NCBI GenBank assembly: GCA_001792895.1
Contig: MARA01000072.1
Span: 1 to 64,000 of the forward strand
DNA: 64,000 nt
Source: Lentinus brumalis
Taxonomy: Eukaryota > Basidiomycota > Agaricomycetes > Polyporales > Polyporaceae
Direction of reading: 5' to 3'
Position 1 is the stretch's first letter. Every line of letters begins with the position of its first letter. The notes beneath the pieces were generated by a model. That model did no database searches. It saw only the letters and a list, made by a program, of their open reading frames with translations, and was not told where the DNA came from. A program made the position numbers and the translations under genes. Positions 1-63,376 of this stretch are shown here, piece after piece.

Positions 1-430
1 AGTCGTCGGGAGCGGGCGACCGCTCGACAACAGCGACACGCGTCTGTCGCGAGCGGTCGACCGCTCGCCCGATGCTTCGGCGACGGCTGGGGATCCCCTC
101 GCCGGAATCCATTGCTTCAGACGGATGACTCGTATCGAGCGGTCGACCGCTCGAGAAGGCTCCGGCGACGGCGGCGACATCCTCGCACCATCGCATTGCT
201 TCAGACGGATGAGTCGTCGGGAGCGGGCGACCGCTCGACAACAGCGACAGCGTCCGTCGCGAGCGGTCGACCGCTCGCCCGATGCTCCGGCGACGACTGG
301 GGACTCCCTCGCCGGAATCCATTGCTGCGACGGATGAGCGGTCGACCGCTCGAGCGATGCCCCGGCGACGGTGGGCGACATCCTCGCCTCAATGCGTTGC
401 TTCAGACAGATGACTCGTCGCGAACAATGC
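1..430. repeat. Cluster of A-family 16-bp palindromes
   Basis: The segment carries spaced copies of GAGCGGTCGACCGCTC and its one-mismatch variant GAGCGGGCGACCGCTC, embedded in imperfect repeats that share 'attgcttcagacggatga'. Open frames run through it on both strands only because the repeats are GC-rich and stop-poor; their translations are monotonous (SGRPLA, ERSTAR). I see no gene here. Confidence 0.8.
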
Positions 431-1289
431 CGATTCTTCCGTAGGTTGACAAGTTTATAATCAAATGCGAGGGACCGGCAGGTACGCCCGCCCACATATC
501 CCATGCAAACCTCGTAGGCGCCCATGGAGTTCCGGCCACTCCAGCCCGTTCTTCATGTTATCGCGATGGGCATGAAGTGGATGAAAGTGTTACCTGGTTT
601 AAACAGCAATGCTTCTATCACAAGTCTTTGAGCGACAGCTCAGACTTCCTTCGACATCACGGGACATCATACCAGACCCTGTACCGCTATTGAGCCTCGG
701 TACTGCCAGTTGGCACTGCCCGGCCCCCGAATATGCCCTCTTTCCTCGCTGCTATCCTCAACTCCGCCAGCGTGTTCTGCTCTTTGCTGGAGCGGTTAGC
801 GGTGGTGAAGGCCTCTCGACGGGACTTCCGAGGAGGATCAAACAAGTCCTGCGTCGCCAACACCGCCAGATCTCAATTCGCCAATGCTGTCGCCTTTGCC
901 GAACTATAGATCCTATAGTCGGCGTATCACCACAGCACCAGTCGTATGGAGGTGCAGTCTGTCTGATCCTGGTCCTGTGCAGCTCAGACCATCCCAAAGA
1001 CCTTTATTCACTGTGTCTACTGATTGTATACATGCGTAGTCCTCATTTTAAAGTCTTGTGTTCTCATGCGCTCCTTGTTGTCGTCCCCACTCATGCTCGC
1101 ATGTTTTCTTAGGATCATGAGCCCTGTGTAATGCTTTCTGTGTCCCGTTTTCATCTTGTACCCCACCGGGAACCAATGATAGCCATCCTGTTAAATCTGT
1201 GCGTGCTGAGATGAGGTTCGGATGAAGTCCAGAGTTACGAAGTCCAGAAGGATGCGCACGGAGATGAGGACTTTGGGGCAAAGCTATTG
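431..1289. other. Intergenic stretch, no recognised gene
   Basis: There are no palindromes here. One open frame (609-1112, +) encodes a Cys- and Arg-rich sequence with no motif I recognise. It could be a remnant of a retroelement coding region but I cannot support that. Confidence 0.4.
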
Positions 1290-2250
1290 AACAATGGCTT
1301 GGGGATCCACGAAGGTCTCCAATTTAGGACAGACAAGAGATCCGGATACCAGAGCAGGACAGACAAGAGATGCAGAGTTTATACCAGAGCAAGCAATGCA
1401 TAAGAAGATAAGCAAGAGTTAATACCAAGCAGAAGAGTAATCAAGCCAGAGGGAAAGAGTCAAGCAGAAGTCGGAGTCAGAGGTCAGAATTCCGGTCGGA
1501 ACTGAGGTCTCAGTGTGGCTACACAAAAGCTTATATAGTAAAGACTGTAAAGTCCGAGAGGCCGGAGAGGAGTAGCGAAGACATAACTAAAGGAGGTCAG
1601 GAACCATAGTCAGGTGGAAGCTAGTGATCGGCCAATACAAAGTACAGTAACTGTGGACTGGAGGCGGATACAATCGAGGTCAGCATGGGGATGGATACAA
1701 GTGGAGTCAGAGTCAGGCAGAAAAAGAAAACACAGGCGGGTACAAGCAGGAGCAGTAAGACCAGATTCCGGGACAAAGTAAGCAAGTAGAATGCAGAAAG
1801 GTGGTTGACAATAGAAACACTTGTAAGACGAACTGAAGTTCTGGAGTCCGATGGAGGTCTGAATGGGAGTTGGTGTCTTGGAGGCACGGGATGTAACAGC
1901 GATCGGACTATGAGAGAAGAGTGAACAGAATAGATTGAGCTGGGAGTCCTAGTTGGTGGTGTAACACGAGATCAGGCCCGAGATCTAAGCACGACCATAA
2001 AGGTGGTCAGAAACCGGAGTCAGGCGGAAACTTATAGGTTAGGTAGAAAAGCGGTCAGGTGTGGAGATAATAGACAATAGCAACACATGTAAGACAAACG
2101 AGAGCAGTGAAGTCAGAGAGTTGGTGACTTGGAGGCATAACAGCTTTCAAGTGGGGGAGGGGTCGGCTCGAGGATAGGTCAAGCACAAGTCGAGCCCTCA
2201 GGGCGGTCCTTTAAACAGGCTCCTTGTTTATGGCATGGCAGCTCCTGATT
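1290..2250 (-). mobile_element. Degenerate LTR-like retroelement remnant
   Basis: The A/G-rich text (repeated 'gacagacaagagatcc', 'aggtggtcag-aac') is in part the reverse complement of the C/T-rich sequence around 24.25-25.6 kb; for example 'gacagacaagagatcc' matches 'ggatctcttgtccgtc' at 25.37 kb. Two related sub-blocks (about 1585-1620 and 1995-2035) suggest internal duplication. No reading frame with retroelement motifs remains, so the family is uncertain. Confidence 0.35.
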
Positions 2251-2607
2251 TGCCTGTCAAGCCTGTGCATCAGATACAAAATGATATGCAGAATCTAAGC
2301 ACTTGCCAACCATGACTTGCAGTCGTGCTGCAGTGTCCCACTCTTGAGTACGAGAACCTGCTTGCTCCCTCAGGCTCGCATACCTGGTCTCTGAAGAGAG
2401 TGTTACGTGCATTGAGAATGTTCCGTACGGGCGGGCGCTTAGCACGTAGATGCACGGATGTACAGGGCCACATATGCGCCAGTCATGGTTCATTCGGGCA
2501 TGAGACGCACGAACCCGCGGAGCGGTCAGTCGCTCGGGCAAGGCGCGGATGTCAGGAGAAGTGCACCACAAAATGGTACTACGCCTGCTTCTTCGATGCT
2601 ACAGTCT

Positions 2608-3360
2608 GAGCGGCCGGCCGCTCGCGAGAGCACATTGGTCCCGTATCTCCCGCTGCTTGCGACGCACGGCAGGACGGGTAAACAGAGCAGCGTGATACTG
2701 CGCCTAAGCCTACGACGGTATGTTCTGAGCGGTCGCCCGCCCACGAACGTATGTCGGTCAGGTATCTCCCGCCGCTCGCGACGCGGCGCCGGACGCGTGT
2801 TGAGTGTCCGGTGAAGGGTACGGGCACCATAGATGATACGCAGTGAGCGGCCGACCGCTCGCGAGAGCACATTGGTCCCGTATCTCCCGCTGCTTGCGAC
2901 GCACCGCAGGACGGGTAAACAGATCAGCGTGATACTGGGCCTACGCCTTCGACGGTACGTTCTGAGCGGTCGCCCGCCCACGAACGTATGTCGGTCAGGT
3001 ATCTCCCGCCACTTGCGACACGGCGCAGGACGCGTGTTGAGTGTCCGGTGAAGGGTACGGGCACCAGAGATGATACGCAGTGAGCGGCCGACCGCTCGCG
3101 AGAGTGCATCGCTCCCGTATCTCCCGCTGCTTGCGACGGACTGCAGGACGGGTAAACAGAGCAGCGTGATACTTCGCCTACGCCTTCGACGGTATGTTCT
3201 GAGCGGTCGGCCGCCCACGAACGTACGTCGGTCAGGTATCTCCCGCCGCTCGCGACACGGCGCCGGACGCGTGTTGAGTGTCCGGTGAAGGGTACGGGCA
3301 CCAGAGATGATACGCAGTCAGCGGCCGACCGCTCGCGAGAGTGCATCGCTCCCGTATTGT
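2608..3360. repeat. 237-bp tandem repeat with A palindromes
   Basis: Three complete units start at 2608, 2845 and 3082, exactly 237 bp apart, and a fourth begins at 3319 and breaks off. Each unit holds two A-family palindromes (GAGCGGCCGACCGCTC type and GAGCGGTCGCCCGCCC type), each followed by a conserved module beginning TATCTCCCGC. Units differ by a few substitutions only, so the array is recent or homogenised. It lies upstream of the BAH/PHD-like gene at 3638. Confidence 0.9.
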
Positions 3361-4952: not shown

Positions 4953-5120
4953 TAGCTCGGGTAGTATAGAGTTCAGGTAGGTATGGATTGCAATGTACTA
5001 GTTGGCAATTGGGCCAGGGTATGAAACGTTATAGCCGCGACGGAATGCGTGGAGAGCGGGCGGCCGCTGGGAGACGGGTCGTAACCACATGGGGAGGCGT
5101 TCAGCTAGAGGCGAATCTTT

Positions 5121-5880
5121 GTGTATTCGCGTCCGAGTCTGTTAAGAGCGGGCGACCGCTGCGAGACGAGTAGGAGATCTGAGCGGCCGTCCGCTCACAG
5201 ACAAACGTCTGTATATTCGCGTCCGATTCTGTTAAGAGCGGGCGACCGCTGCGAGACGAGTAGGAGGTCTGAGCGGCCGTCCGCTCACAGACAAACGTCC
5301 GTGTATTCGCGTCCGAATCTCTTCAGAGCGGGCGACCGCTGCGAGACGAGTAGTAGGTCTGAGCGGCCGTCCGCTCAGAGACAAACGTCCGTGTATTCGC
5401 GTCCGAATCTGTTCGGAGCGGGCGACCGCTGCGAGACGAGTAGTAGGTCTGAGCGGCCGTCCGCTCAGAGACAAACGTCCGTGTATTCGCGTCCGAATCT
5501 GTTCGGAGCGGGCGACCGCTGCGAGACGAGTAGTAGGTCTGAGCGGCCGTCCGCTCAGAGACAAACGTCCGTGTATTCGCGTCCGAATCTGTTCGGAGCG
5601 GGCGACCGCTGCGAGACGAGTAGTAGGTCTGAGCGGCCGTCCGCTCAGAGACAAACGTCCGTGTATTCGCGTCCGAATCTGTTCGGAGCGGGCGACCGCT
5701 GCGAGACGAGTAGTAGGTCTGAGCGGCCGTCCGCTCAGAGACAAACGTCCGTGTATTCGCGTCCGAATCTGTTCGGAGCGGGCGACCGCTGCGAGACGAG
5801 TAGTTGGTCTGAGCGGCCGTCCGCTCAGAGACAAACGTCGTGTATTCGCGTCGGAATGCGTTCAGAGCGGTCGACCGCTG
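5121..5880. repeat. 90-bp tandem array of A palindromes
   Basis: About eight near-identical 90-bp units each contain GAGCGGGCGACCGCT and, 40 bp on, GAGCGGCCGTCCGCTC, separated by 'cgagacgagtagtaggtct' and 'acaaacgtccgtgtattcgc'. 90 is a multiple of three and the unit has no stop in several frames, so long spurious ORFs exist on both strands. The array fills the gap between two convergent paralogous genes. Confidence 0.93.
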
Positions 5881-7245: not shown

Positions 7246-7865
7246 TGCGGTGTGGGGAGGCGATAGAGGGATGACAGGGTGGAGGGAAGAGAGAAGGCGA
7301 ACATAGGCGGGCGCTCTGCGTGAGACTTGGTTGCGCTCAACAAAACCACGTGAGATGACACTCGCGGTGACGGGTGACGCATCACTGTGTGAGAGGCGGC
7401 GGTGGGCGGGAGATGGAATGAGGGCATGTCAGTATCAGGCGGTCGAGCGGGACAGTGGCGACTGTTACTACCGGTGTTATACGTGCATCGCGGGCGGGCG
7501 GAGATACATCTCCTGCAGGCAGCGACGACAAATGAATGGCGTTCCGAGCGGCCGACCGCTCAGACATGACATTCCCAGGACACTGTAAGTGAATTTGGTG
7601 GTGGACGGGTTGTCATTAACGTAAGAAGTATATTCTGAGCGGTCGACCGCTGAGATGACACTGTTGCGCTGGTACGACCGCTTTGAACAGGGAACCTGTG
7701 CGCATGTGCAACACGCCGGATTGCACTGGATCTGTTGGATTATTCTCACAGCAATACACGCAACTGAGGGTCTGAGCGGCCGACCGCTCATACGCACGAA
7801 TGGTTGAACGCGAGGGGATTGCAGTGCGTGGATTATCATTGTAAAACGGAGCGGGACACATGAGT
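7246..7865. repeat. Intergenic spacer with three isolated A palindromes
   Basis: Single palindromes lie near 7548, 7637 and 7776, spaced roughly 90-140 bp apart, without a tandem unit around them. The spacer separates the 5' end of the BAH/PHD-like copy 2 from the 3' end of the large gene at 7866. I see no gene here. Confidence 0.6.
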
Positions 7866-10800
7866 CTACACATAACGGCGGCGTTGAGAGGCAGGGGGTT
7901 GAGAGTCATCGTCAGAGCTCCAACTACCGGCGCGGGGACGGGTTGATGATGAGGGACCGGCTTGCAGACGATGCGAGTACTCCGTGTTAGCGGCGCGTTG
8001 CATCTGCGATCCGAAGTGACCTCTGCCGGCCAACATCTCCGCGACGTCGTGCCCGAAGATCTTCGTGACGATTGTGTGCGGGCCGTCGGGCTTTGTGAGC
8101 AGCGTTGTTCGGACCTCGCGGCTCCACGCGTGCAACTCGGGTACATCAAAGATGTGATAGTCCCTGTGGAGGCGAGGTGACTTGAACATGGCAGCGCCCT
8201 TGCCGTAGGCGATCCCGAGACGGATGAGGTTTACGGTGTGAAGGTACTTGGGGCCTGAACGGGATTAGCGGAGTGAGACGAGGCAAGAACAGTAGAGCTG
8301 GGCAACATGCAGGCATACCGTGTTTCTTGTTCCACTGCGCGATGGACCCGCCGTTTTGGAGGTGGGTGCGCAGAGGCGACTTGGGGTCCATCCAAGCGAG
8401 GAAAGTGATGGCGGCGATAGTGAAGAATTGGTCCTCGGATTTACTGCCCTTGTGGTCGTTCGTGTAAACGCGCTGTGTCCAGGGGACCATGCGGAAATAG
8501 GTCACGGAGCCCTGAGGATTGGCAGTCGAGACTCGGTCGAGACCGGCCGGGCAATTCTCGGTTTCCCAAGCGACTCTGGGGAGGACCTTTGAGAGGAGAA
8601 ATGCGAGAGTGAGGGCGAGCGAGCACAGGGGATCCTGGAGATTGGTGCGCATGCGTTCGTCCGCCCACTCGTACGTCTCGAGAATCATCCCGGTTGCTTT
8701 AGCGGAGGCCCAGTTCCAAGACTGGGGAAGGACGGTGCGGTCCAAGTACTTGGGGAACTCGGAGATCTTGATGGAGACGGTGTCCCAGGAAGCACGAGGG
8801 TCCGCGTCGACGACGAGACGGGTGAACTGGGCCAGGGCAGCCTCCGCGCGGGCCTCCTGGGTCGGGAGACGGTTTACGGCGATGGAGGGAGTTGCGCTTG
8901 TCGCGCCGAGGGTGGTCCATGCGTGAATAGAGGGAGTACGCAGAGGGGCGCCTGTGCCGTTGGGGTTAGGCAGGGTGTCCGGGATGAAATTGACGTGGCG
9001 GGTCTGCATGACGGCAACGAGGGCGCGTTTGAAGTCCTTCAGGACGTCCCTGTCGTTGCTTCCTCTGAGCATCAGCCTTGCTTGCTGAATGCAAGCGCAG
9101 GCGACGGGGCCGAATGTGCCAGCGGGGTCGATGGGTGCGCGGAAGGAGCGAGCCGTCGGCAGCTTTGTCTGACTGATGATCTCGTCTGCGAACTGGTCGA
9201 GGGACCATTCGCCGCGGGAAGACTTCTGCAGACCGCGGCCAATGTCTGCGACAGTGACAGAGGAAAAGCGGATGACTTGCTCGAGGGTGGACCGGTCGGG
9301 ACCGTAGGAGAGACAATGATTAGACTTGCGCCACACGTCCCAGTTCTTCTTGCGCTCAATAGCCCTGACGTGGTCGGGATGGTTGCGATCCTTCAAGGCA
9401 TCGGCGATCTCTGTGAACAGCTGCCGCTTGACGAGAGCGAGCACATCCTCCTCGTATGCGTCCATGGCGATCTGGGCCGTGATGAGGAGCCTCTGAATCG
9501 ATGCGTTATACCTGGAGGTGCCTGGCGGTTTGGGGGAGACGTTGGCCAGACGAAGCCGGAAGTCCGTGAGATATATCTGAGGGCGTTGTGAGGTCAGCGA
9601 AGGGTATGTAGCCACGGAAGTGAATCAAGAGTCTGGTCCAATATGAGCAGACCATCAACAAGACGTGCGTACGAGCGGGCGGCCGCTCGCGGAGCACTTC
9701 TGAGGGGTCTGCGCACGATGCGCGGAGGTTGCATGGCAGAGATCGAGTCTCGGGAGCGGGCGACCGCTCGAAAGCATACGTCGCACGAGCGCAGCCGGTG
9801 AGATGACCGACGGGCAGACCATCAACAAGTCGCACGTACGAGCGGGCGACCGCTCGCGAGCACCTCTGAGGGCTCTGCGCACGATGCACGGAGGTTGCAT
9901 GGCAGAGATCGAGTCTCGGGAGCGGGCGACCGCTCGAAAGCATACGTCGCACGAGCGCAGCCGGTGAGATGACCGACGAGCAGACCATCAACAAGTCGCA
10001 CGTACGAGCGGGCGACCGCTCGCGAGCACCTCTGAGGGCTCTGCGCACGATGCACGGAGGTTGCATGGCAGAGATCGAGTCTCGGGAGCGGGCGACCGCT
10101 CGAAAGCATACGTCGCACGAGCGCAGCCGGTGAGATGACCGACGAGCAGACCATCAACAAGACGTGCGTACGAGCGGGCGGCCGCTCGCGAGCACTTCTG
10201 AGGGCTCTGCGCATGAAGGACGGAGGTTGCATGGCAGAGATCGAGTCTCGGGAGCGGGCGACCGCTCGAAAGCATACGTCGCACGAGCGCAGCCGGTGAG
10301 ATGACCGACGAGCAGACCATCAACAAGACGTGCGTACGAGCGGGCGGCCGCTCGCGAGCACTTCTGAACGCCCTGCGCACTACACACGGAGGTTCCGCCC
10401 ACCAAACCGAAGACAGGCCACAATCAAAAGATGAGTACTTACCAAGAAGTGCGGGAGACCGTATGTGAGCTCCTGAGAGCGCTTCGACACCACGAGCGGC
10501 ATATACTCCGGACGGGGGGCCAGCGGCCACTGGGAGAGCTCGACAAATGGTGCGGTTCTTGTCTCGCCGCCGATGACCAGACCAGGCCAGAACGCGGGAA
10601 AGCCATTGTCGAGAATGCCGCGGGTGACCCACATGTGCCACATCAGATTTCTATTGAGGACCTTGGCTGCGCCTGTGTGCGCGAAATTGAGGCAGCGCTC
10701 GGCCACAGAGGTGAGCTCGACGTAGACAGGATCAGGACGGCCGTTCTCAGCAGGATTCATAAGGTTTGGCTTGACACGCAATGTCCAGACTCGGTCGAGG

Positions 10801-13800
10801 AGGGTCGTGATTGGGTACGTCGTCCACTCCAGGATGCGAGGGTAGACCTGTGAGATGCCGCGCGCAGTCAGCATCATCCACGCAGATCAAAAGTAAGTGG
10901 TGCGTCGTACCGCTGGTTTGAAGATTACCGTCGAGGAACGGAGCGCGTTGTTGACCTCAGGGCTGAAGAAGATCTTGCGGAGCTTCATGAGAACGTGCTC
11001 GTAGAAACCGCCGCCAGAACGATACTCAGGCTTGATGCGCGCGATGTGGAAGATGAAGTTGTTCTCAAAGCGGAGGGCGTTCTTGTTGGCATGGTCCTCA
11101 GCGGTGCGCATCTGGCGGGCGAGGCGTTCATGGGGCAGCTGCGCAGACGCATAGCCCAACGTATCGAGAGCGGTCTTTTTGGTGGTGGCGTCGCGTGCCC
11201 AAGCACCGGCGGTAGCACCAGTGAGCGGCCCGCGCTGCGCGATGTGAGTGCGGGCCTTGTCTCGGACGTGATGGGCGACATTGTTGTATGCCTGGGACTT
11301 GAAGCCCTCAATGCAGAGGGGCCCGTCCGCAGTGACGCCTATGTCGCGGGCGAGACGGCGCAAGGGACGCAGGAGAGGCTTGATGATGCCGTCCGCCTGC
11401 CACTGACCGATGTTCTTGGAGAAGAACTGGGGGTAGGTGAAGATGGGTGTCATGGGCTCAGACGGGTCCCCAAGGATGTCGGCGATGAAGTCCTCGTCCT
11501 GGAGATCCCTCTCCCCGTCGTCGAGCTCAGGGTCCTGAAGCGGGATGATCGAGGACTCTTGAAAGAGGGGGAGGACCTTGTTGAGATCCTGGAGCAAGCC
11601 GCAGGGAGGTGTGTCCGGGTCGCGAAACCTGTCTCTGCGGAGGATTGGAAGTCCGTCCTCGGAGAAGATGGGGATCTCGCGACCGTCACCGTCGAGGAGG
11701 TCGTAGTTTTCCAAGTCCTCGATGAGCTCGCGCGTGTTCGGATCGGCGGTCGTGTATACATGTGTGTAGCGATCGAGGATGCGCTGGGGGTCGATAGGCT
11801 CGAAGCCGCTTGCCTCAATAGCCCTACAGTCAGGATGCGTGTGGTGCAATTGATATGAGAGCATATGTATGAGATGCAGGTGTTAACACGCACTGGGTAT
11901 GCACAGCATAAGCCATGTGAATGCGGAGGATGTTGTTGAAGTCGATCATGTCGTTCCAAGTATCGCGATCGGCCTCGAAGGTAGCTGGGGCACAGATTTT
12001 GATGTTTTGGCCATACTTGGCGAGGATGGCAACGGGCTCAGCGTCGATGAACTCTGGGACTCTGTACGAGTCCGGTGCTCCCTGCCACCATTCGTCGTAA
12101 TGCTCCTTGATCGCACGGTCGAGGTTCCGAAGAGTCTCGGTAGTGAACTGCCAGATGGGATTGTCGCTGACGAAACGAGTGAGCATACATGACGTGCAAC
12201 AAATGTGGAATGGGGAGAATAGGAGCGGGCGACCGCTCACAAGGCATCTTCTGCCACGGGTCAGCCGCTATTAGTACTCGACAATCCATCTGGAGCGGGC
12301 AACCGCTTATGCGGTGTCGTCTGGCGACCTGTCGCACGCTCATGGTGATATGTCGTCTGGAGCGGGCGACCGCTCAGAGCGACACTGATCCATGCGCTTG
12401 CTGTGATCCCAGGGTCACGGTGAGCGGTCGTACGCTCACAATAGTGGGATGTGTCGTTCGGAGCGGGCGACCGCTCAGAGCGACACGTTGTCCGGAGCGG
12501 GCGACCGCTCATCCATGCGCTTGCTATCATCCAAGGGTCACGGTGAGCGGTCGTACGCTCACAATATTGGGATGTATCGTCCGGAGCGGGCGACCGCTCA
12601 GAGCGACACGTTGTCCGGAGCGGGCGACCGCTCATCCATGCGCTTGCTATCATCCAAGGGTCACGGTGAGCGGTCGTACGCTCACAATTTGGGATGTATC
12701 GTCCGGAGCGGGCGACCGCTCATCGTCAATATCCCTTGTGGTTACCCAAGGGTTAGGGTGAGCGACGAGAGTCAAGACACGCGCCTGCCTCTGATTGTGC
12801 GCGGTAGCAATGGGCGGGCGTCGCAACGACATGGGCAAGACCACATGCGGGAAATGGCAGGACTCACAAGATGTTGGTTTGCAACCGCCATTCATACTCC
12901 TTCGCGACGTCGGGATACTCTTCCGTCATGTATACCGTACCATAGCCAGCCTTGACGAGCATGTAGGTGATCATGGAGATGGTAATGCGTGCCACAACAG
13001 AACTCATCGTCGTGGGCACGCGCGTGTGGCGGACGGGCTCCGGGTCTGCGGCAAAGGCGTCGACAGGCATGAGCGCGATGAACACATCAGCCTGCATCGG
13101 AGCCTGGCCAATGTATAACATCCGGTGGTCGGGCAGGAAACCAAAGACGCGCCGGTCGCCCTTGAACGTCCAATGTCTGCGGTCGAAGCGCATCGTGAAC
13201 GACCAGTCCGGTTTGTCCACTGGCGGCAACACAGCACCGAAGCCGAGCTCCTTCGGGACACGTATGTCGCAGTCCCAGCGCACCTGCACGCCAGAAAGGG
13301 CACAGGGAGCGAGAACGCACGGGTGGGATGAGACACAGAGATGGTAACAGAGGTAGCATCATGTACACACCTCGCTCAGCTTCCAGTAGATCTTGGGATC
13401 ATTGGCGGCGTACAAGTAGCGGCTGTCGACCTTGAGAAGGTTCTTGCGCTGCAGGAGCGAGAGAGCCCTCTCTTGGTTGCGGGAGTTGAAGTTCCGCTCA
13501 AGATCGGAGAGGAGGACGGTTCTGGTCGGCATCTCGACATACCTCTGCGCCAACTCGTCAAAGTGAGCGTCCGCGACGAGATGGCCGCGGGTGACCTCCT
13601 CCTGCGAGACACTGTCCTCGGTCACCATGGTCGGCGGGACGAAGCTGATGTTGAACGGCTCGCGGAGAGGCCCGTCTTCCTCGTCATCGGTGTACGCCGC
13701 CGCGCCGAGGGGCTCGTCGAGTTCGCTATTGAGAGAGGGGGAGGGGTACGATGAGGACGGAGTGCGCAAAGCAGGACAGTGGCCAGATAGATAGATGCCC

Positions 13801-13907
13801 TCAGACACGTACTTTACGTCTTCTTCCGGCTGTTCATCTTGTTCGAAGGACGGCTCCTCTTGAGAAAACGTCGGTTGATCATCGTAGAAGGCGAAGTTGG
13901 TGTCCAT
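7866..13907 (-). CDS. Large eight-exon protein of unknown function
   Basis: The start ATG at 13907 begins MDTNFAFYDD. Exons I can place are 13907-13813, 13725-13371, 13283-12868, 12166 to about 11890, about 11820-10908, about 10833-10443, 9576 to about 8325 and about 8260-7866, about 1,350 residues in all. Junctions at 13812/13726, 13370/13284, 12867/12167 and 10442/9577 are GT-AG with matching phase. The acidic N-terminus is followed by a middle section with aromatic-rich blocks (DNPIWQF, RIHMAYAVHTQC) and a C-terminal third with FDVPELHAWSREV; it ends in a Ser/Arg-rich tail. I recognise no catalytic motif. Introns 3 and 6 (701 and 866 nt) are ten times normal size because they contain A-palindrome arrays. 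It may be a TE-associated accessory or transposase-like protein. Confidence 0.65.
9577..10442. repeat. Intron 6 of the 7866-13907 gene, ~166-bp A-palindrome array
   Basis: The intron runs from GTAAGT (complement of 10437-10442) to CCTCAG (9577-9579) and joins PHFL to IYLTDF in phase 0. Inside are four to five units of about 166 bp, each with GAGCGGGCGACCGCTC-type palindromes (some GAGCGGGCGGCCGCTC) and the shared text 'gagatgaccgacgagcagaccatcaacaag'. The array therefore has to be removed by splicing. Confidence 0.85.
12167..12867. repeat. Intron 3 of the 7866-13907 gene, A-palindrome array
   Basis: A GTGAGT donor at 12867 and a TCAG acceptor at 12167-12170 join '...LQTNI' plus TT|C to DNPIWQF in phase 2. 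Two full 123-bp units (from 12491 and 12614) and partial ones carry GAGCGGGCGACCGCTC and a second palindrome form GAGCGGTCGTACGCTC. Copies within the array are nearly identical. Confidence 0.85.
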
Positions 13908-14362
13908 CGCGAGCAGCAGGAGATATCGCGAGCGGCGGGAGATGGAGATAGAATGCTGGAGGGAGGGGACGACAAGTTGGGGAGTTAGGGTAAGGGTGGG
14001 AGGGGACCGCAGACGACTTTTGACCACGCAGCAATGATTTATGCGACCCCAAGGCAGCGGTAGGCTAGAAAGAGCGGATCAGAGGGCTTCAAACGTTCAA
14101 GCAGCGGGAACGCTATTTGGTTGTGCGATCGGGGGTGTGTCATTTCAGATGAGTCATCATTTAAAGGGCGAGAGACAATTGCATTCAATTATGGCGAGGA
14201 GAGATATACAGGAACGAGTAGGAGTGGTACATGGGCAGGACTATGCGACGGGAGGGAGGGAAGGATATGCGATACAAGTACAATGAGGAAGCGCGACATT
14301 CAGCGAACGACAAACAGACCGGCGGGCACAGGAGCGCGGAAGGAGAGACGGGGACAAAGAAC
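13908..14362. other. Short spacer between two head-to-tail minus-strand genes
   Basis: The spacer holds the presumed promoter of the 7866-13907 gene and the 3' end region of the ParB-like gene. There are no A palindromes and no obvious TATA box close to 13907. Confidence 0.4.
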
Positions 14363-17300
14363 TCAACCGATCATCGCGTCAGTGTCGTCGTCCTTAACCA
14401 TCGCGGCATTTGCCTTGGACTTCGCGCCGGGCTGAGGACGTTGACGAGTCCTCGCCGCGACAGGCTGCGTCGAGCTGGCCGCGCCAGAGCCAGTCTTGAG
14501 GTCCTTCTTCAGGACCTTGACCGCCTTATCTTCGGGCTCTGCTGTACTTGTCGCGGCACGCTTGCGAGTAATGCGGGCGGTGCCTTGGTTGTCGTCCTTC
14601 TGAGCGTGCGAGACCGGCGGGGTGACCACCATGGAACTGACGTCTGTACAATCATTGCGTGAGCTTCAATGTCGGACAGAAGGTAGTGGAGCGTGGGTGA
14701 GGATGTGTTCGAGCGGTCGACCGCTCGCGAGCATCAGCTGTCGGACAGAAGGTAGCGGATCATGCTCGCGAGCGGACGACCGCTCGCTAGCTCGCAGCGG
14801 CAGATACCGTCTGAGCGGTCGACCGCTCGCTAGCTCGCAGCGGCAGATACCGTCTGAGCGGTCGACCGCTCACGAGCATCCATTGTCGGACAACAGGTAG
14901 TGGATCGTGGGTGAGGATGCTCGCGAGCGGTCGACCGCTCGCTAGCTCGCAGCGGCAGGTACCGTCTGAGCGGTCGACCGCTCGCGAGCATCTTAGCGGC
15001 CGCACGTCATGTTGAGCGGTCGACCGCTCGAAGGCAATGTCGGGATTGCATCCACCAGAAGGGGACCATGCGAGCGGTCGACCGCTCGTTCTGACGTGCG
15101 GCTGCGATCCCCTCTTGAGCGGTCGACCGCTCCGAGAATACATTTGCTGCGTCTTCACCTGTCATTTGCGTAAGACAATATGAGAGAACTCACTATGAGC
15201 GAGGTCCTCAACGCCCTGCTCAGCATCGTCGTCGAGGTCCACCATGCGGTCGGTCCTCCCGTGCTTCTTGAGACGTCGCAAAGGCTGCGGCGCGTCGTCC
15301 TCCGCATCGTCGCCGTTGTCGTCGGGGACCTCAGAGGTAGGGGGGCCGTCTTCGGGCTCGGAAGGACCCTTGTCATCGACCTCCATAGCGTCGCGAGCGG
15401 GCGACCGCTCGCGAGGGACATCCTCGTCAGGCTGAGCCTCCTCAGGGGGAACGGACTTCGCTTCGTCCGTGGCGTGCTCCGAGGCACTCTGCGTTGCCGG
15501 GGCGGTGGAAACCTCGTCGGTGTGCTCACCGCTGGGCTCATCGAGCGTGATGGGACCGACAGAGGCCCAGAGCTTCTCTTCATCGGCATCCTCCCCCTCT
15601 GCGTCGAGGTCCTCGCCGTGAGCCGACTGGTCGTTCTTGCCGTGATTGCCCTGAGGAGGCTCGTCGCTGCTTGATTGGAGCTGGTCTTCGCCGTTCTCAT
15701 CGCCCTCGTCCTCGTCCCCATCCCCGTCCTCGTCGTCGTCCCCGTCGTCGTCCCGTCCGCGTCGTCGTCCGCGTCGTCGTCGTCGTCGTCGTCCTCCTCA
15801 TCGTCGCCCTCGTCCTTGTCCTTGTCAGCGCCCTCGGACGCGCTCTGGTTGTCAGACTCCCGATCGGCCGGGTCGGTGGGCTCTCCGTGAGTCGCCGTGC
15901 TCGCACCGCTGGGTCCGCCCATCTCCATTTCGACATCCTCGACGTCCGAACGATGTTCCTCCTTCGCGAGCGCCGCCGCCGCGAGTGCGCGCGCAGGAAC
16001 GCTGGCCGCATCGAGCTTCATCGCCCCCACGGGCCCGTTCCAGCCGACGAGGTCTTGCGGGAGAATGTCCGTGTCCTTGTACGGGCCCAAGAGCTGCGGC
16101 TTGGGATAACCAAGCCTCTCCAATGCGCCCTCGTACCGGTCCATCTCCTTCCGCGACCGCGCGGTCCTCTCGGCTTGGATCTGCATATAATTGAGCGACG
16201 GGTACGCGGAGCTGTCCGCCTTCGCCGCCATAGTCGGGAACTCCTCGTAGAAATGGTCCCGCCGTCCAGACGGCTCGACGTACGGAGCCGTTGTCCCGCT
16301 TGCGCGGGCCACCTGCCGGTTCGCGTTCGTCCAGAGTGTCTGAAAGCACGCGATGCGCAGTGAGTACAAAGCATAGTACATCCAGACGCCGCACTCACCT
16401 TGATCAAGTCTTCGAAAGAGGTGAGCACCTCGCGGTCGAGGACCACCTGTTTCTTGGCAGCGGTGGGGCCGAAATGCGCGACCTTGGACGACCTGACGGT
16501 CTTGATGATGGTCGAGATCTCCGCGGAGAACGTAGCCCGCATGGTGGCGGACTCGAGGAATGTGTCGAGGTCGAGGTCGAGCACATCCACCGAGACAGGC
16601 AGCGGCGACGCTTGGGTCTCGTACACTTTCCCGAGCTCAGCGTCCCAGTACTTCCAGACACTGACGCGCCGCCCCTCGCGCCCGATGGACTCGAATGCAC
16701 CAATCGCGCTCAGGTGTTTCGCTGCGGCCGCCCGCAGGCTTTTGAACGCCAGAGAGGCGTAGAATGGCGCGACGTGCTCAAGCTGGTACGCCCACCTGAC
16801 CGGAAGCTCGACGCTCAGAGCCTTCAACGCCTTGTCCTCTCCGGCGCTGTTTGCCTTCTTCGCCACGAACGATCGGAACTCGGGAGCGGACGTGGTTACG
16901 AGCATGCGGAGCGCGGGCAGCTTGTCGAGCTGGGATGTAGTGAACCCCCCGTTCTCCGCATCTGCGTCCTTCCGCATGACGGTCAGAGCCTCCTTCATCG
17001 CCTTGTAGTACGCCTCGCAGGTCGGCTTCCACGGATCGTCCTCCGAGTTGAAGTCGATGAATGCGCCGAAGGGGGACAACTTCGCGTTGACGCCGCCCTT
17101 CCCCCACACAGCTTTGCCGATCTTCTCGAAGATGAACCGCCGAGTACCACGCAGGGCATCGGAGCCAGTTGTTGCCATTGCGTGGACCATGCGGCCTATG
17201 TCGGTAAGCTTGATGTGCTCGCGGAGCACAAACGACCACCACTGTTGGGCCGTCAGTGTATGAACTGTGAGCGTGCAGAAGGTATCCGATCAGACTTACC

Positions 17301-20300
17301 CAGACTGAGACACCAGGGACTTGTCGGAAAAGTGTCGCATCTGACAGGAGGGCGTTGATTTGGTCACCGAGGAGGTTATGGGGATTGCCGCCGTGGAGCG
17401 GATCGAGCATGAACATGAGCTGCAGGGAGAGGTGTTAGCACAGCTGTTCACAGTGTAACTCCGCGGCCGAGCGGGCGACCGCTCGAAGTATGTATTCACC
17501 CTTCGTGCCCTATCTCTTGGCACGAGCGGGCGACCGCTCGCACCGTAACTCTAGGGCCGAGCGGGCGACCGCTCGGAGCACGTCCATGGCATGAGCGGGC
17601 GACCGCTCGCACTGTAACTCTGGGCCCGAGCGGGCGACCGCTCGGAGCACGTCCATGGCATGAGCGGGCGACCGCTCGCACCGTAACTCTAGGGCCGAGC
17701 GGGCGACCGCTCGGAGCACGTCCATGGCATGAGCGGGCGACCGCTCGCACTGTAACTCTGGGCCCGAGCGGGCGACCGCTCGGAGCACGTCCATGGCATG
17801 AGCGGGCGACCGCTCGCACTGTAACTCTGGGCCGAGCGGGCGACCGCTCGGAGCACGTCCATGGCATGAGCGGGCGACCGCTCGCACTGTAACTCTGGGC
17901 CCGAGCGGGCGACCGCTCGGAGCACATCCCTGGGATGAGCGGGCGACCGCTCGCATCGTAACCTCTTCGAACGAGCGGGCGGCCGCTCACGCTGCGTCTC
18001 GGCGATCGAACAGTCCGATGGACAAAGGCAATACCACTCACCGTCGCGATTCCGTCGTCTGCCGCGGTCAACTTCTCCTTCAGGGCGTCCATGAACGTCT
18101 TCGTCGGGACCGGGAGCGCGAAGGCCAGCCCGAGCCGCTGCAGCTCGAACACCCACTCCAGCTTCTGGGGTGCGTTCTCCAGCGCACGAATGGACTCCGA
18201 GTCCGGAGTCGTCGCCCGCAGCTTGTCGAGGGTCGCCGTCCAGTACTGCGCACACGACCGCCGGATCGAGGCCTGATAGCCACGCAGCGCGTCCATCCAC
18301 AGAGGCGAGTCGCTGTGCGCCATGTGCGCAAGCCGGTCCTTGAGGCACGACCGGTACGCCGCGTCGATCGTGTCCAGGAGCTCCTTCGGGAACACCTCTT
18401 GCACAACTCGTGCGGCCCGCACCGTCGCCATGACCTCCTCGTACCTATTCTGCGCCTGCCGACGGGCACCCACCGCGGTCTTCGACACCGCAGGGAGAAT
18501 CGCCTCCTGGCCATTCTGCAACGCCTCCATCACCGCCGTCCGTTCCTCGGCCTCCTGGATGCTCGCGATCTGGAACGCATACACCTCGCTGCCGAGCGCA
18601 GAGGCCTGGGGATTCACCAGCTTCCCCTGCTGGTTCACCTCCGGCCACTCACAGTCACTCGCGATGAAATGCAGCGCTGCCAGCCCTGAACGCAATATCT
18701 CCATGTGAAGCTGACACAAGCAGGTCAGCACTCGCATCCGCATACACACAAGCCAGAAAAAAGCACGCACCCAGTCACCGTAATCGCCGTCGTCCAGGTA
18801 GTCCCCAAATGCCTTCGTGTTGACCACGGCTTCGCTCGTGTAGTATGGGAACACACTCATGAGCGACATGAGGTTCCAGGTGGACGGATTATGGAACGGC
18901 TTCATGAAGGAGGAATACTTCCGACGCGTTTTCGGGTCGCCCATCACATCCTCCAGGAGTCGCGAACTCCACCACCCATTGCCGGGGACGAGTGTCTCCA
19001 CCGGGATATTGTGCGTCTTGGCAAGCTGCGCTGCCGCGGCCTTCAGCTCGTACACCCACCGCCATGTTCGCTCTACCATCGTCTCCGAGAGCTGGGGATC
19101 GATCTTGTTCATGGAGAGATGGCGGAGGGTTGGCTCCTGCAGCTTATCTATAACATAGCGCATCATCAGTCGTGTGATCTCGTGAAGTACAATCTAAAAC
19201 AGCCGCAGTGTATGGTCGGAGAAAGCGGTCACGCCCTCGCGCTCGCCACGCCTCTCGAGCGGGCGACCGCTCACATTGGCGAGGCCGCTCCTACTGACCG
19301 AGCCTCGCGAGCGGTCGACCGCTCGAATCGCAACATCGCACACGCAGCGGGCGATGCTGGCGACACCTTTTGAGCGGTCGACCGCTCGAACTCGGTCGAG
19401 CGGTCCAGCTGCTGTTGTAGTTCTATTGCAATAGAGACCGGTAAATAGCCTGCGCGCTATTGCAACACGTACCGGCTCCCGTGTACAGCCACCCCGGAGG
19501 CTCCGGGAGCCACCATATTCTGCCTAATTAGGCAGCTGAGCTAATAGCCAGCCCGGAGGCCTCCTTCTTGGGCGCTTTTTTGGCTCTTTTTGGCCTCTAC
19601 AGCCACAACAGCCCCGGAGCCCATAGTGGCTGTGCTATACCAACCTCCCGGCGCTTTTTTCGTGTTTTCTGGCCCAATATGGCAACTTACTGATGATGGC
19701 TCTGCAGTGAATGTTCCTGCCACCTTAGTACCTTCAGTTCTTATCCGTTTTACATGAAAGTAGGTGCAATGGATTCGCGTTTTAATGCTCTATCTACCTG
19801 GAGCATGAGATACCCAAATACCTGATATACAGGTGCTGTATGGTCGATTTGATCAATAAAATGGGCATATAAAGACAACATCATAAACACTGGGGTCATA
19901 TCTTGTTCAATTTTTACACTTTGGGTGCCACCAAAGAGGTATTAAATGCTGCTTTCTAATGAGGCACTATATATATTAACTTGATACATCAGTGTACTGA
20001 TTACACCCTAGATGTATTTCTCAGTACCAGCCTTGTATTGGTTTCAGTACTTCACTGTCTGTTCTGTCAACTGGTACTAATATCCATAAATACCCTTTCA
20101 ATGATATGGACTCAATTGCAATGCAATAGATGGTATACAGTAGCCACACTTAAGCAAAACCCTTATTGCTGCAAGCCTGCACATTCTTGCACTGAATATG
20201 TTGCCTTCTTGGAGTTCAAACTTTATGAAACTTGCTACATATTATAGCCTTGGTATGGTCTACATGTCTACCAAATTTCAGCCCTATCCGCCAACAGACA

Positions 20301-42701: not shown

Positions 42702-42739
42702 CTCTCCATGCGGCCCCTCTACACCCCCAATGTACAGCC

Positions 42740-43784: not shown

Positions 43785-44005
43785 GTCGTCCAGGACGACC
43801 ACCGCGTGCGGCATCCCTCGGCGCCCACGGCGACTGCGCCCCCTCACGCTCATGGTCGTCCTGGACGACCACTGCGTGGGTAGAGGCCTCGCCGCCTGTG
43901 ACATTGACCCTCCACAGCTGCGACACCGTGTATGGCGTCCCTAAGACGCCCACGACGACGCCCCCCCCCGCGATGGTCGTCCTGGACGACCACTCCGTGG
44001 TCAGA
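43785..44005. repeat. Last B palindromes before the retroelement
   Basis: Three palindromes, one A-centred (43784) and two T-centred (about 43854 and 43976), in two copies of a ~120-bp unit sharing 'ccctcgccgcctgtgacat'. B palindromes do not occur beyond this point. Confidence 0.85.
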
Positions 44006-44104: not shown

Positions 44105-44231
44105 TTATGACAGGTCACGTGACCTAACCCCCCTCTGGGGTTAGGGTAGGGTTAGCAGACCCCGCCCTAGGGTTATATTCCTGCCTAGGTACCATCCCTG
44201 CATTTGCTGTACAAGTCTCTCATAACCCTAA
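44105..44231. repeat. Degenerate telomere-like tract upstream of the Coprina element
   Basis: GGTTAGGGTAGGGTTAG and CCCTAGGGTTA, with nearby CTAACCCCC and ATAACCCTAA, are scrambled (TTAGGG)n motifs in both orientations, immediately 5' of the first terminal repeat. Confidence 0.7.
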
Positions 44232-44958
44232 GAACCCGCAGGTGCGTCCTTAGGCGCCCTACACCCAGCCACGTGACCCGAGGCCTAGACGCCTCGGACC
44301 GAACAGCCGGTTAACCCCGGACTGAAGTCTACCCTGTTATGGTAAGAAGCCAAGCGCTCTGTACCCCGGCTCCGCTACGGCCCGGACCGGGTCAATTAGT
44401 CGCCAGGCACTTACCTTTACCGCCGGCCGGAGTGATCCGACCGGTCCGGAGCGCAGCCGTTGCGTGCTCTGGGGGACTAGGCGGACTCTGGTCCGGCTTA
44501 TATACTGGCTTAGTAGGCGCCGTCACGGCAGCTGCCAGCCAATAGGATTTGAGGAACCATTTCCGATCGGAAACTCCGATCGGCATATCTATTATTACAC
44601 CGGTGTCCCCTCGCGGGAACCTCGGACTCGGGCCGAGACATAACCGGTGTGGGGTGAGAGAATTGATGTCGGAACTCGGCATTTCTGTCATATTACATGA
44701 CAATGTCTTGATCGGTCCGCGTCAAGCGGATCGGAACGTAAGCGTTATCGCGTCATTAACTCCGAGGCCGGGATTAGTCACCGTCCGACATCGGAGTTAA
44801 GTGACAGCAGGTATCTTACCTAAGCAGCCCTGATGAGCCGTATAAAGGCGAAACAGCAGCTGCGGTAGTCTCTACCGAGCCTGTTGGCTGCTTCGCCTAC
44901 ATAGTCTTTTCTTAGCACACGTCTTTAGTGCGGTGCTTCGCACCGCCCTCCCTAACCC
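44232..44958 (+). repeat. 5' terminal direct repeat (pLTR) of the Coprina element
   Basis: 727 bp from GAACCCGCAGGTG to CCTCCCTAACCC. It includes a TATATA motif near 44500, several short stem-loops (for example TGCGGTGCTTCGCACCG) and the ribozyme. It ends 39 bp before the RT start codon. Confidence 0.93.
44822..44893 (+). ncRNA. Hammerhead ribozyme, 5' copy (type I)
   Basis: Stem I pairs AAGCAGCC (44822-44829) with GGCTGCTT (44886-44893). The core CTGATGA (44830-44836) is followed by stem II GCC/GGC with a 7-nt loop, then GAAA (44850-44853). Stem III is CAG/CTG extended by GCT-G-CGGTAG/CTACCGAGC around a TCT loop. The cleavage triplet is GTT, cutting after 44885. All invariant core bases are present. 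Hammerheads in PLE terminal repeats are established; they process the tandem transcript. Confidence 0.93.
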
Positions 44959-49796: not shown

Positions 49797-49867
49797 CTAA
49801 ACCCCCTAACCCTAGCTCACCCTTACCTCCCCCTAACCCTAAGGGGGTTACAGAAATACCTATCAAT
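49797..49867. repeat. Telomeric repeats and isolated copy of the 53-bp block
   Basis: CCCTAAACCCCCTAACCCTA is followed at 49815-49867 by the same 53-bp block found at 28452-28504 and 51444-51496, here without the rest of the 197-bp repeat. The next bases (ACAATATGAGCGG) start the A-palindrome region. Confidence 0.85.
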
Positions 49868-51299
49868 ACAATATGAGCGGTCGACCACTCATATCCTGCC
49901 GCGAGCGGTTGACCGCTTGCGGGCTATGCCTCGGCCACTTGTACCCTGCTATGAGTAGTCGACCGCTCGTACCATGCTGTGAGCGGTCGGCCGCTCGCTG
50001 CGATGTTTCAGGCAAGAACTGCCTGCTGTTGTGCACTTCAGGTTGTAGACAAGTGGACGTCCGCTGAGCATAGGGCACGAGCATCCAACCTCTGATCATG
50101 GATGACGAGGGAACATCTGCTGAATGTAGGCCACGAGCGGTCGACCGCTCACCATAGGTGCATCTACCAAACAGAGCACCTCGGACGTGCGCTGGGACGC
50201 AGGCTGATGCTGCACCTGCAACTCCAAGCCTATGATCCAAGCGTCGGCCGCTCTCGAATATGTATTGGTGCCGTATCTCCTGTCACTCGCGACACATCGC
50301 TGCGCATATGCTGAGCACACCCTGATGCCGCGCTCATGTGTGAGGTGCACACAAACAGCGGAGGAATCCCGCAGAGCGGTCGACCGCTCAGAACGGACCT
50401 GCAAAGCTTGTTTGCTAACTGAGCACCTTCTGTGGCAAATGAAATTAATGTAGAGCACTCTCATACACCTTATTTGAGCGGTCGACCGCTCAGAACAGCA
50501 CTTGCATTGCTACGGTGCATACAAACAGCGCAGCAATCCCGCAGAGCGGTCGACCGCTCAGAACGGACCTGCAGAGCTTGTTGGCTAACTGAGCACCTTC
50601 TGTGGCAAATGAAATTGATGTAGAGCACTCTCATACACCTTATTTGAGCGGTCGACCGCTCAGAACAGCACTTGCATTGCTACGGTGCATACAAACAGCG
50701 CAGCAATCCCGCAGAGCGGTCGACCGCTCAGAACGGACCGGCAGAGCTTGTTGGCTAACTGAGCACCTTCTGTGGCAAATAGAATTAATGTAGATCACTT
50801 TCATACACCCCAATTGAGCGGTCAACCGCTCAGAACAGCACTTGCATTGCTACGGTGCATACAAACAGCGCAGCAATCCCGCAGAGCGGTCGACCGCTCA
50901 GAACGGACCGGCAGAGCTTGTTGGCTAACTGAGCACCTTCTGTGGCGAATAAAATTAATGTAGAGCACTCTCATACACCCCAATCGAGCGGTCGACCGCT
51001 CAGAACAGCACTTGCATTGCTACGGTGCATACAAACAGTGGTGCAATCCCGCAGAGCGGTCGACCACTCGGATTGATGCTTCCAAGCTCATTTATTGGCT
51101 GAGCACTTTCTATGGCCAAGGATATTACTGTAGATCAGTCCTGTATGTACTATGTGAGCGGCTGACAGCTCGGAATGCACTGTTGACCCTTATGGTGGTT
51201 CTGTCGCTGGCCGATCACGGTGAGCGGTTGACCGCTCATATGCTCATATCTTATCGAAGTTATCGTGAGCAGGTGGCAGCTTACTATAATCAACTGCTC
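49868..51299. repeat. A-palindrome region with 170-bp tandem repeat
   Basis: The first part (49868-50320) is a diverged relative of 25.96-26.55 kb. From 50371 a 170-bp unit repeats at 50541, 50711, 50881 and 51051, each with two A palindromes (mostly perfect) and 'gctaactgagcaccttctgtggc'. No gene is visible. Confidence 0.88.
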
Positions 51300-51496
51300 A
51301 CCTTCTACACAGTTCTGAGCGGTTGCCCGCTCGTTCGCTACTCATACTGATCACACCAACCTCCCTGCCACCAACCGCTCCTCCGCCGCAATTTATGCTC
51401 TCCAGCAACTCGACCGCTCGCAACGTACATTCAGCCCAATAATGCTCACCCTTACCTCCCCCTAACCCTAAGGGGGTTACAGAAATACCTATCAAT
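51300..51496. repeat. 197-bp repeat, copy 2, abutting the truncated DIRS element
   Basis: Matches 28308-28504. Its 53-bp end block stops at 51496 and the RNase H coding sequence of the retroelement begins at 51497. Confidence 0.9.
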
Positions 51497-61760: not shown

Positions 61761-62400
61761 CACTGATCAAGGCACACTGGATGTTCAGACAACCTGGAGG
61801 CCTCTCAGTTAGACTGTCTTTGCCCTTGATTGTGTCTGAGGAGCCCTGATGCTAAGTTTTTGGGATGAAGCAACGTGCTTTTATCCAGGTAAGCAATTGC
61901 TTACTGCAGCGGGTTAGATTTGGCTCACAGGATTATTAGGCAAACAAGCAATCAATTACTGCAATGGGTTTCATGTTGCCTATCGGGGTGAACCGTTCCT
62001 TACCGGGACAGGTTTGGCTTATTGAGTTATCCAAACAGGGTTACTTTTGGTTTACTGAATGCCTTGGAAATCACCCCACTAATGCACCTGTCAGCTTGCT
62101 TCATGCAGATGGTGTGATTGAATATCTGTGAGCACAGCTCAGCCAGCGGCGAAGCTACGTAGTGTTGAGCCACAGGCTCATTTTCGGGGCAAAGCCACGG
62201 GTAATAAACTAGTCATATTGAAGCCACGGGCTGTCTTACTGTAACGGGTGAGATTTGGCTCGCTGCTCACTGTGCTTACAATTACTTACCGGAACCGGTT
62301 GGGCGCTTGTGACCGGCGTGTATATTGGCACATACAACACCGTTCGTTAATGTTCCGCCTCTGTGGTAATTCCATTAAGTTTACTGTTAAGCCGGAGGTT
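61761..62400. other. Gene-free stretch with weak repeats
   Basis: Scattered 'cttactgcaacgggtt' and 'ccacgggct' repeats, AT content higher than the neighbours. I see no gene, RNA or element boundary. Confidence 0.4.
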
Positions 62401-62629
62401 ACTACGAGAGGCGCTCTCGCAGCGGTCAGCCGCTCCACGGCCCGGGACGAACTTATCCAAGGCATTACGAGCGGGAGAGTGCTACAAATCACACACGTAC
62501 AGCACGATTGTACATCGCGAGCGGGCGCCCGCTCGTCGTCGGCCCTAGTAGACACCGTCTGTATCGTCCGAGGCAGTCGAAAGTCATACAGAGCACGTCG
62601 TGACGACCCATCTACATCTTTGAAGAGAC

Positions 62630-63060
62630 GTTTCGAGCGGCCGACCGCTCACGAACAAGGATCGGTCGTGTATCTCCTGCTGCTCGCGACGCACCGCGCG
62701 ATACGAGCAAAGAGGTCCCTGATACGGCTCCTGTCCTACCGACGCTACGTTTCGAGCGGCCGACCGCTCACGAACCAGGATCGGCCGTGTATCTCCTGCT
62801 GCTCGCGACGCACCGCGCGATACGAGCAAAGAGGTCCCTGATACGGCCCCTGTCCTACCGACGCTACGTTTCGAGCGGCCGACCGCTCACGAACAGGATC
62901 GGCACGTGTATCTCCTGCTGCTCGCGACGCACCGCAGAGGTGAGCGGGTCACCGACCGTCATACGATGAGGTGCTGCGGCCCCGCAGGGTGAGCGGGCAA
63001 CCGTCATAATGAGGTGCTGCATAGCCATTGAGCGGTCGGCCGCTCATCGTCAGATGTGCT
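62630..63060. repeat. 120-bp tandem repeat with A palindromes
   Basis: Three units begin near 62630, 62750 and 62870. Each has GAGCGGCCGACCGCTC followed 30 bp later by the TATCTCCTGCTGCTCGCGAC module. Two further palindromes (63029, 63119) follow. This is the same palindrome-module pairing as in the 237-bp array at 2.6 kb. Confidence 0.88.
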
Positions 63061-63376
63061 TGGAGTGATTCCAAGTGTATCACTTATTCCCTATCACTTA
63101 TTCCCTATCACTGCTCCGGAGCGGTCGACCGCTCACAAGCCTGTGTGCACGAGAGCGGGCCCGTAATTGCCTGCTACAATGTGACGGGTGATTGCCTTAT
63201 ATAGGTGACATGGTGCTCGAGGCCAGGTGAAGGGTGCAGCTGCGGCAGCCTGGTGTCCCTGCAGGGTCGGCGCCAGCGTATAAGTGCGCCATGCAGCGCG
63301 CTGTCTCCTCAGACTCTCGTCTCTGTCTCCTCTCCCTCGCGAACCTCTGCTTCCATCTTAACTCGTCCACATCAAG

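Follow-up and report, generated by a model that had tools for sequence, protein, structure and literature searches.

The first 64,000 bases of contig C107 (92,327 bp) of the Lentinus brumalis assembly (53.4 Mb, 136 contigs), hereafter called the window, contain genes, inserted elements, and arrays of two short palindromes: a 16-bp palindrome (family A, GAGCGG-N-CG-N-CCGCTC) and a 19-bp palindrome (family B). Each palindrome is carried by a different family of large repeated elements; both families have genes of their own and are found mostly close to the ends of contigs. The arrays that lie between genes, or where gene models could not be built, are as follows.

10..351, A array, 6 sites
2520..3334, A array of 8 sites spaced by about 119
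5054..5880, A array of 18 sites in which two centres alternate, with a period of 90 (35+55)
7546..7789, three A sites directly past the point where gene A2 appears to stop
23280..24206, A array of 18 sites with a period of 46, upstream of gene A1
25966..28340, A arrays, 9 and 21 sites
29565..30125, B array, 8 sites
34164..35999, B arrays, 5 and 3 sites, between genes B2 and B3
41642..43992, B arrays, 6 and 3 sites
49875..51332, A array of 17 sites, for the most part with a period of 170; its unit lacks the A1 exon
62420..63134, A array, 7 sites; A arrays go on beyond the window

Two palindrome families in separate domains

Family A has 160 sites in the window with at most two mismatches (148 with at most one, 115 exact), against 0.8 expected from shuffled sequence (largest count, 4). 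For B, there are 31 sites with at most three mismatches (31 with at most one, 24 exact), against an expectation of 0.04. A chance origin is thereby excluded for both, and the original prediction was right that the two families are real and rich in copies; its 16-bp form of A, its figure of more than 100 copies and the positions it gave are likewise correct. Genome-wide, 1,314 exact A sites and 198 exact B sites were found, and the control patterns, read backwards, gave 2 and 0. A contains inverted CGG triplets with four bases between them (CGG-NCGN-CCG), an inverted repeat that is absent from B. No third palindrome family of comparable size was found in the five contigs searched.

Along the window the sites run A (136 sites), B (31), and A (24), that is, with two label switches in 191 sites; the fewest switches in 10,000 label permutations was 36, and the same order counted over 21 arrays has a P value of 0.0003. 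A occupies 10-28,340, 49,875-51,332, and 62,420-63,134, and B is confined to 29,565-43,992. The claim that the two never intermix in the window thus holds. The further claim that each array keeps a single centre is largely right: the centre is GCGA in 14/15 sites of the A array at 17.5 kb, TCGA in 8/10 at 14.7 kb, G in 7/8 sites of the B array at 30 kb, and T in all six at 38 kb. It fails for the 5.05-kb A array, which alternates two centres (8 GCGA, 8 CCGT), and for the A arrays at 27-28 kb, which mix several. An inverted duplication (95%) of 26175-26849 and 27025-27699 lies within this last A array region.

Genes and intronic arrays

Six arrays lie in introns with consensus donors and acceptors and matching phases (phases read by eye): three in gene A1, two in gene A2, and one in gene B3. 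The gene features are as follows.

7866..13908, minus strand, hypothetical gene A2, its exon pieces identified by eye
9577..10442, minus strand, A2 intron with A array 9673-10353 (9 sites), donor CTTG/GTAAGT, acceptor CTCAG/ATA, in frame by eye
12167..12867, minus strand, A2 intron with the 11-site A array 12223-12721, judged by eye to be in frame
14366..22770, minus strand, gene A1, hypothetical, three introns with A arrays, 12 genome copies
14644..15193, minus strand, A1 intron 3, with 9/10 A sites of the 14711-15410 cluster
15395..15410, no strand, lone A site within a supported exon
17420..18041, minus strand, A1 intron 2, A array 17469-17988 (15 sites)
19148..21934, minus strand, A1 intron 1, A arrays 19257-19387 and 21732-21877, with a terminal inverted repeat (TIR) element between them
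28463..29393, minus strand, C5 DNA-methyltransferase-like exons (weak matches), truncated by an A unit
30254..33213, minus strand, gene B2, hypothetical
36254..41300, minus strand, gene B3, SNF2/SF2-type helicase (Helicase_C match)
38185..38651, minus strand, B3 intron with the six-site B array 38230-38612, flanked by helicase exons and judged by eye to be in frame

Support for these introns comes from several sources. The splice of A1 intron 1 equals that in a partial L. brumalis protein (P0005). Two exons match this protein, one with 96% identity and 17% query coverage, the other with 92% identity and 96% coverage. At A1 intron 2, four related proteins stay similar up to the donor and then diverge, as judged by eye, and the B3 intron is flanked by stretches that match a second helicase at 55.0-58.3 kb (E values of 7e-5 and 1e-4), which has neither A nor B sites. 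The A2 exon pieces, also read by eye, include 13908-13362, a piece that ends at 12868, a stretch from 12166 to 10443 interrupted by smaller introns, and a piece that starts at 9576. Supported exons hold only 1/167 of the A and B sites below 44 kb, the lone site at 15,395, where about 46 would be expected if sites were uniform; in this comparison the exon list is partial and covers some small introns, and the sites are clustered in arrays. The 2.3-kb TIR element (19422-21715, with TIRs of about 375 bp that are 98% identical) is inserted in the A array of A1 intron 1, and the copy of this intron on C50 lacks it.

The encoded proteins for which matches were found would be of chromatin type, with differing support. 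B3 matches Helicase_C above the cutoff, and other helicase pieces match SNF2 and ResIII weakly. For the methyltransferase-like exons, PF00145 and DNMT1 structures gave weak matches that fall short of the curated cutoff (best PDB E value, 0.012). PHD-like zinc-finger open reading frames (ORFs), with weak Pfam matches, were observed on both strands of the distal A element, at 4374-4952, 5947-6486, L001:3218-3775, and L001:5464-6018, where L001 is C107 beyond the window (L001:6469-10000 is contig 70469-74000). The scanned exons of A1, A2, and B2 matched no protein family. A BLASTp comparison of A with B open frames gave only short or low-complexity matches, and we claim no shared gene origin. No RNA family at the gathering threshold and no tRNA was found.

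Each palindrome has its own genes

Our analysis shows that each palindrome travels with particular genes. A1 is present in 12 genome copies (16 match rows), and at all 16 A1 loci A sites occur in introns on both sides, with B absent from the 1.5-kb flanks. The B-element methyltransferase exon is present in five copies, each with eight B sites. Co-occurrence with specific gene families, proposed as a check in the original prediction, was therefore found for both, A with A1 (12/12) and B with this methyltransferase (5/5). Long pieces of the B core are 97.8 to 99.7% identical on C32, C45, and C50.

Neither palindrome occurs in the 3.4-kb loci of two interior relatives of the methyltransferase gene, on C43 and C49. 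The C43 gene (361-364 kb, L022), an array-free interior gene, is 96% identical to the B type in protein and 95% in DNA over 1,041 aligned bases; the C49 gene is 45% identical. Similarity between the C43 gene and the B copy ends at 29,539, next to the first B site (29,565). The C43 gene may have been donor or recipient of part of the B copy.

Subtelomeric position and block order

The A-site sample comprised sites followed by AA (93/93 listed, on 18 contigs), with 73/93 on 14 contigs of known length and the other 20 on C31, C33, C60, and C116. On the nine contigs of known length that exceed 240 kb, 37/37 sampled sites are no farther than 38 kb from an end; those near the start of a contig are on the minus strand, and those near its end are on the plus strand. 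A1 is transcribed towards the nearer end on 8/8 long contigs of known length. Orientation is mixed on the short contig C21 (15 plus, 2 minus), which is dense in A sites (136 in 29 kb) yet lacks the A1 exon. In a similar sample of B, among the first 100 of 181 matches over both strands, B occurs on C32, C45, C50, C57, C60, C61, C68, C84, and C107; one site (C68:169,076) may be interior to its contig. Several contigs begin with a telomere in the form of a TTAGGG tract. They include C61, where B sites lie at 0.8-2.7 kb behind the tract, and C79, where the A edge described below lies at 43.9 kb.

In the fetched contigs the blocks run A-B-A-B along C45 and A-B-A along both C50 and C107, with A only on C21 and B only on C32 (24.9 kb). 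A and B domains alternate, as had been proposed for examination, on C45, C50, C60, C84, and C107, and neither random mixing of the palindromes nor equal density elsewhere was seen in the part of the genome examined. The original prediction had not noted the intronic placement of many arrays, the subtelomeric setting or a fungal host. Contig 70469-74000 repeats window positions 1-3527 (99.66%), and a second A1 copy lies at contig position 88,746. A circular C107 was considered and rejected, because intron 2 has 15 A sites in one of its A1 copies and 17 in the other, and their intron 1 sites are not the same either; a tandem arrangement of A elements, at a distance of about 70.5 kb, appears more likely than a circle. 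On C21 (L002-L004), 8,156-bp tandem units are made of A arrays and Penelope-like fragments, and a 60-bp interstitial TTAGGG tract lies at C21:25,702.

Fixed edges of the elements

Each element family has an edge on its interior side that is fixed in sequence. The edges in the window are as follows.

28468..28504, plus strand, A-unit fixed interior-side edge (CCCTAACCCTAAGGGGGTTACAGAAATACCTATCAAT), which cuts the methyltransferase-like gene
44201..44232, plus strand, B fixed interior-side edge (..TCTCTCATAACCCTAA)
49831..49867, plus strand, A-unit edge
51460..51496, plus strand, A-unit edge joined to a reverse-transcriptase-like ORF

The last 21 bases of the A edge occur 17 times in the five fetched contigs. 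In all 17 copies the sequence changes after one further T, into 14 different flanks: the methyltransferase gene, the reverse-transcriptase-like ORF, helicase gene B3, a Penelope-like element (in three places), other A arrays, and sequence that is not in the window. A genome search allowing two mismatches returned 41 copies, all exact, on 18 contigs, with one orientation per contig; on the nine long contigs of known length, 16/16 point inwards from the nearer end. The B core edge, TCTCTCATAACCCTAA, has three exact copies with three flanks and a fourth, inexact copy. The window's copy of B is cut at 28,505 by the A unit, while those on C50 and C32 run on. Because one fixed A edge joins 14 different sequences, this pattern suggests that A and B elements attach by the fixed edge to exposed or broken chromosome ends, which would also be how they spread. 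As another candidate, a Helitron-like end was considered for the A edge, since it contains a short inverted repeat and the next base is T in every copy; Helitron ends carry CTRR, but this motif is missing here and the edge has one orientation per contig, so the candidate was rejected.

Other insertions adjoin these edges. An element between 727-bp direct repeats (44232-49796) is inserted at the B/A junction next to CCCTAA, and partial copies of it exist on C21 and C50. From its motifs we take its ORF (44928-48473), which has no Pfam or PDB match, to be a putative Penelope-like reverse transcriptase. It is a separate insertion between B and A, and no reverse transcriptase belonging to A or B units was found. 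The ORFs at 51452-54793, cut by the A-unit edge at 51,496, are presumably a DIRS/Ngaro-like reverse transcriptase and a CCHC gag-like protein, again by their motifs. Further along, an SNF2-like helicase unit without A or B sites (55012-59956) is 99.9% identical on C32, where a paralogue of it at 0.5-3.0 kb is 71% identical. Beside the end of the unit lie a 45-bp palindrome with 21-bp arms (59740-59784) and about 28 copies of degenerate telomere-like 32-bp repeats (59956-60841).

How the sites change

The arrays multiply by local tandem duplication. A1 intron 2 holds 5 to 31 A sites across the 12 copies, while in the adjoining exon seven full-length copies, that of the window included, differ from the window's by 0 to 2 of 1,104 bases. 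We compared 240 pairs of tandem A units chosen by their flanks alone (14 with a partner of more than two mismatches). Differences per column were 0.050 in the half-sites, 0.154 in the centre, 0.126 in the near flank, and 0.153 in the far flank; the half-site/flank ratio of 0.40 (0.30-0.51) means that half-sites diverge 2.5-fold less, and the centre shows no such reduction. Among 289 distinct A sites, CpG transitions were found at 46/289 centres and at 24/578 half-site CpGs. Arm changes were single in 57 sites and double in 17, none of the latter (0/17) compensatory. It had been claimed that half-sites are conserved around a free centre, in the manner of a dimeric protein site. Conserved half-sites and a free centre were measured for A, and a dimeric site gains indirect support there, from constraint without compensatory change; for B the counts are too small, and only one central base varies.

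Proposed binding-site arrays and their alternatives

The reading that we favor, with modest confidence, is that A and B are cis-acting arrays of double-stranded binding sites, each private to one subtelomeric element family and read by a putative dimeric protein that marks or opens its own chromatin. For A, half-site constraint, decay of the centre, and the lack of compensatory change together favor a dimer on double-stranded DNA over hairpins or an inert satellite. A dimeric, sequence-specific protein would read each family; its most likely use would be to mark or open the chromatin of its own element only, as VANC proteins do on VANDAL elements, and with private sites, related elements at the same chromosome ends would not share factors. 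The predicted protein is most likely encoded by the element, with a host factor as the alternative.

A number of observations weigh against this. (i) No binding protein was found; the ORFs scanned contain no sequence-specific DNA-binding domain recognized by Pfam, so that of the claim that each family is the site of its own element-encoded protein and spreads with its own genes, the part concerning genes stands and the protein remains a prediction. The 16-bp palindromic form of A and a ParB-looking motif in an A1 exon (by eye) brought up a ParB/parS system, a candidate rejected when neither this exon nor a six-sequence profile found a ParB match in Pfam or the PDB; the AlphaFold2 model is poor (pLDDT of 50). 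(ii) The Fisher test of the CpG contrast (8.5e-9) treats the 289 A sites as independent, which they are not fully, and the palindromes were compared within one genome, in which tandem units and copies are not independent. (iii) For B, unbiased flank pairing gave 10 pairs with no half-site change, few as these pairs are, and at a less strict flank cutoff, which gave 93 pairs (in 61 of them a partner exceeds two mismatches), the ratio was 1.14 (0.99-1.27), so that half-sites are not more conserved than flanks. Constraint is thus measured for A only, and the case for B comes from the exactness of its sites. (iv) The anti-silencing role is drawn by analogy.

Of the other explanations, the one that survives best, although we consider it unlikely, is that the arrays bind a host protein (a Zn2Cys6 regulator or a silencing or replication factor) and that the elements merely carry its sites. 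Zn2Cys6 proteins bind CGG triplets, and A has them inverted; hosts commonly silence subtelomeres, and no element-encoded DNA-binding domain was recognized among the scanned ORFs. However, B lacks the CGG inverted repeat, sites are absent from both interior methyltransferase genes that were fetched, and 0/93 sampled A sites are interior to a long contig of known length; given this lack of interior occurrences, a regulator serving the host in general would find this exact form at few other places.

We give less credence to an inert satellite, in which palindromes grew by slippage and unequal exchange and bind nothing. Clear tandem periods, the uniform centres of many arrays, and the fast shift in copy number within one intron agree with it, as does the failure to show constraint on B beyond that on its flanks. 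Yet the same half-sites recur amid unrelated spacers, CpG decay is greater at the centre than in the arms, and homogenization would affect neighboring columns alike, whereas A half-sites diverge less than the adjacent bases. Least probable, in our estimation, are palindromes acting as folded RNA or single-strand hairpins, in intron RNA or a transposition intermediate: perfect palindromes do fold (A1 intron 2 RNA, 622 nt, -319.7 kcal/mol, z of -6.2 versus 20 shuffles), but any palindrome array would, single arm changes leave the arms mismatched, double ones do not compensate (in a looser A set that includes off-register matches, 23 compensatory changes were seen versus 21.6 expected), some arrays lie outside introns, and the centre has no one consistent loop.

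A more elaborate form of the binding-site reading is tentative, and we rate it as doubtful. It supposes two giant chromosome-end families with chromatin-type genes (methyltransferase-like, SNF2-like, and PHD-like) and a private dimeric address code in introns and spacers, each family reading its own code to keep its copies open or recognized, with antisense copying that preserves introns. Since the template for end-copying would be antisense to both A1 and A2, their introns, with the arrays they contain, would survive each jump.

Relation to known systems

VANDALs are Mutator-like DNA transposons of a plant. As described in the portions of PMC5735166 drawn on here, VANC21 binds 9-base motifs that are dense in introns and noncoding parts of its own VANDAL family, these motifs are tandem repeats that vary between copies, and VANC6 targets have other motifs. 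The system described here resembles this one, so far as the cited parts of PMC5735166 and PMC10398659 describe it, in its family-private short motifs, arranged in tandem in intronic, intergenic, and terminal noncoding DNA, in the variation of motif number between copies, and in the existence of two motif types; it differs in that theirs is a 9-mer (YAGTATTAY) in one orientation, whereas these are palindromes of 16 and 19 bp. Of the VANC-type features, a family-private motif in the noncoding DNA of the element and arrays varying by tandem repetition were both found here. The host here is a fungus, however, the elements are subtelomeric, and no VANC-like or Mutator-like element (MULE) protein was recognized; a Mutator-like transposase had no Pfam match in 30 window ORFs (E value of ≤0.01) or in 10 further exons (E value of ≤1), with only exons scanned. 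By analogy, the A/B layout appears closest in logic to VANC/VANDAL arrays, as a likeness and not as membership.

The yeast Y' element is a subtelomeric repeated element with a helicase gene. Y' and the fungal subtelomeric RecQ helicase elements are similar to the present ones in being multicopy, near ends, and equipped with a helicase gene and telomere-like junction repeats; in contrast, the helicase here has a Helicase_C and weak SNF2 match and no RecQ-type match, and palindrome arrays are not mentioned in the parts of PMC7473861 used for this comparison. Endonuclease-deficient Penelope-like elements, as treated in the sections of PMC3846280 cited here, start synthesis at chromosome ends that are exposed, and a template in antisense would retain its introns; relative to a template of this kind, A1 and A2 are antisense here. 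With Penelope-like elements and the Terminons of bdelloids, in the parts of PMC3846280 and PMC7943196 relied on, the A and B elements share one fixed interior-side edge joined to unrelated sequence, with the opposite side facing the chromosome end. A Penelope-like ORF is also present at one junction here. They differ in that no reverse transcriptase belonging to the A or B units was found, and mobility is here a prediction.

A literature search by title and abstract start found nothing on this system within the wording used. Family-specific motif arrays have already been described for the VANDAL elements of Arabidopsis. If our reading is true, L. brumalis would provide a convergent fungal case, with palindromic sites, a location at chromosome ends, and chromatin-type genes; the coevolution of a selfish element, its private binding protein, and host silencing would become testable in a mushroom-forming fungus, and the two palindromes would supply ready-made orthogonal operator arrays.

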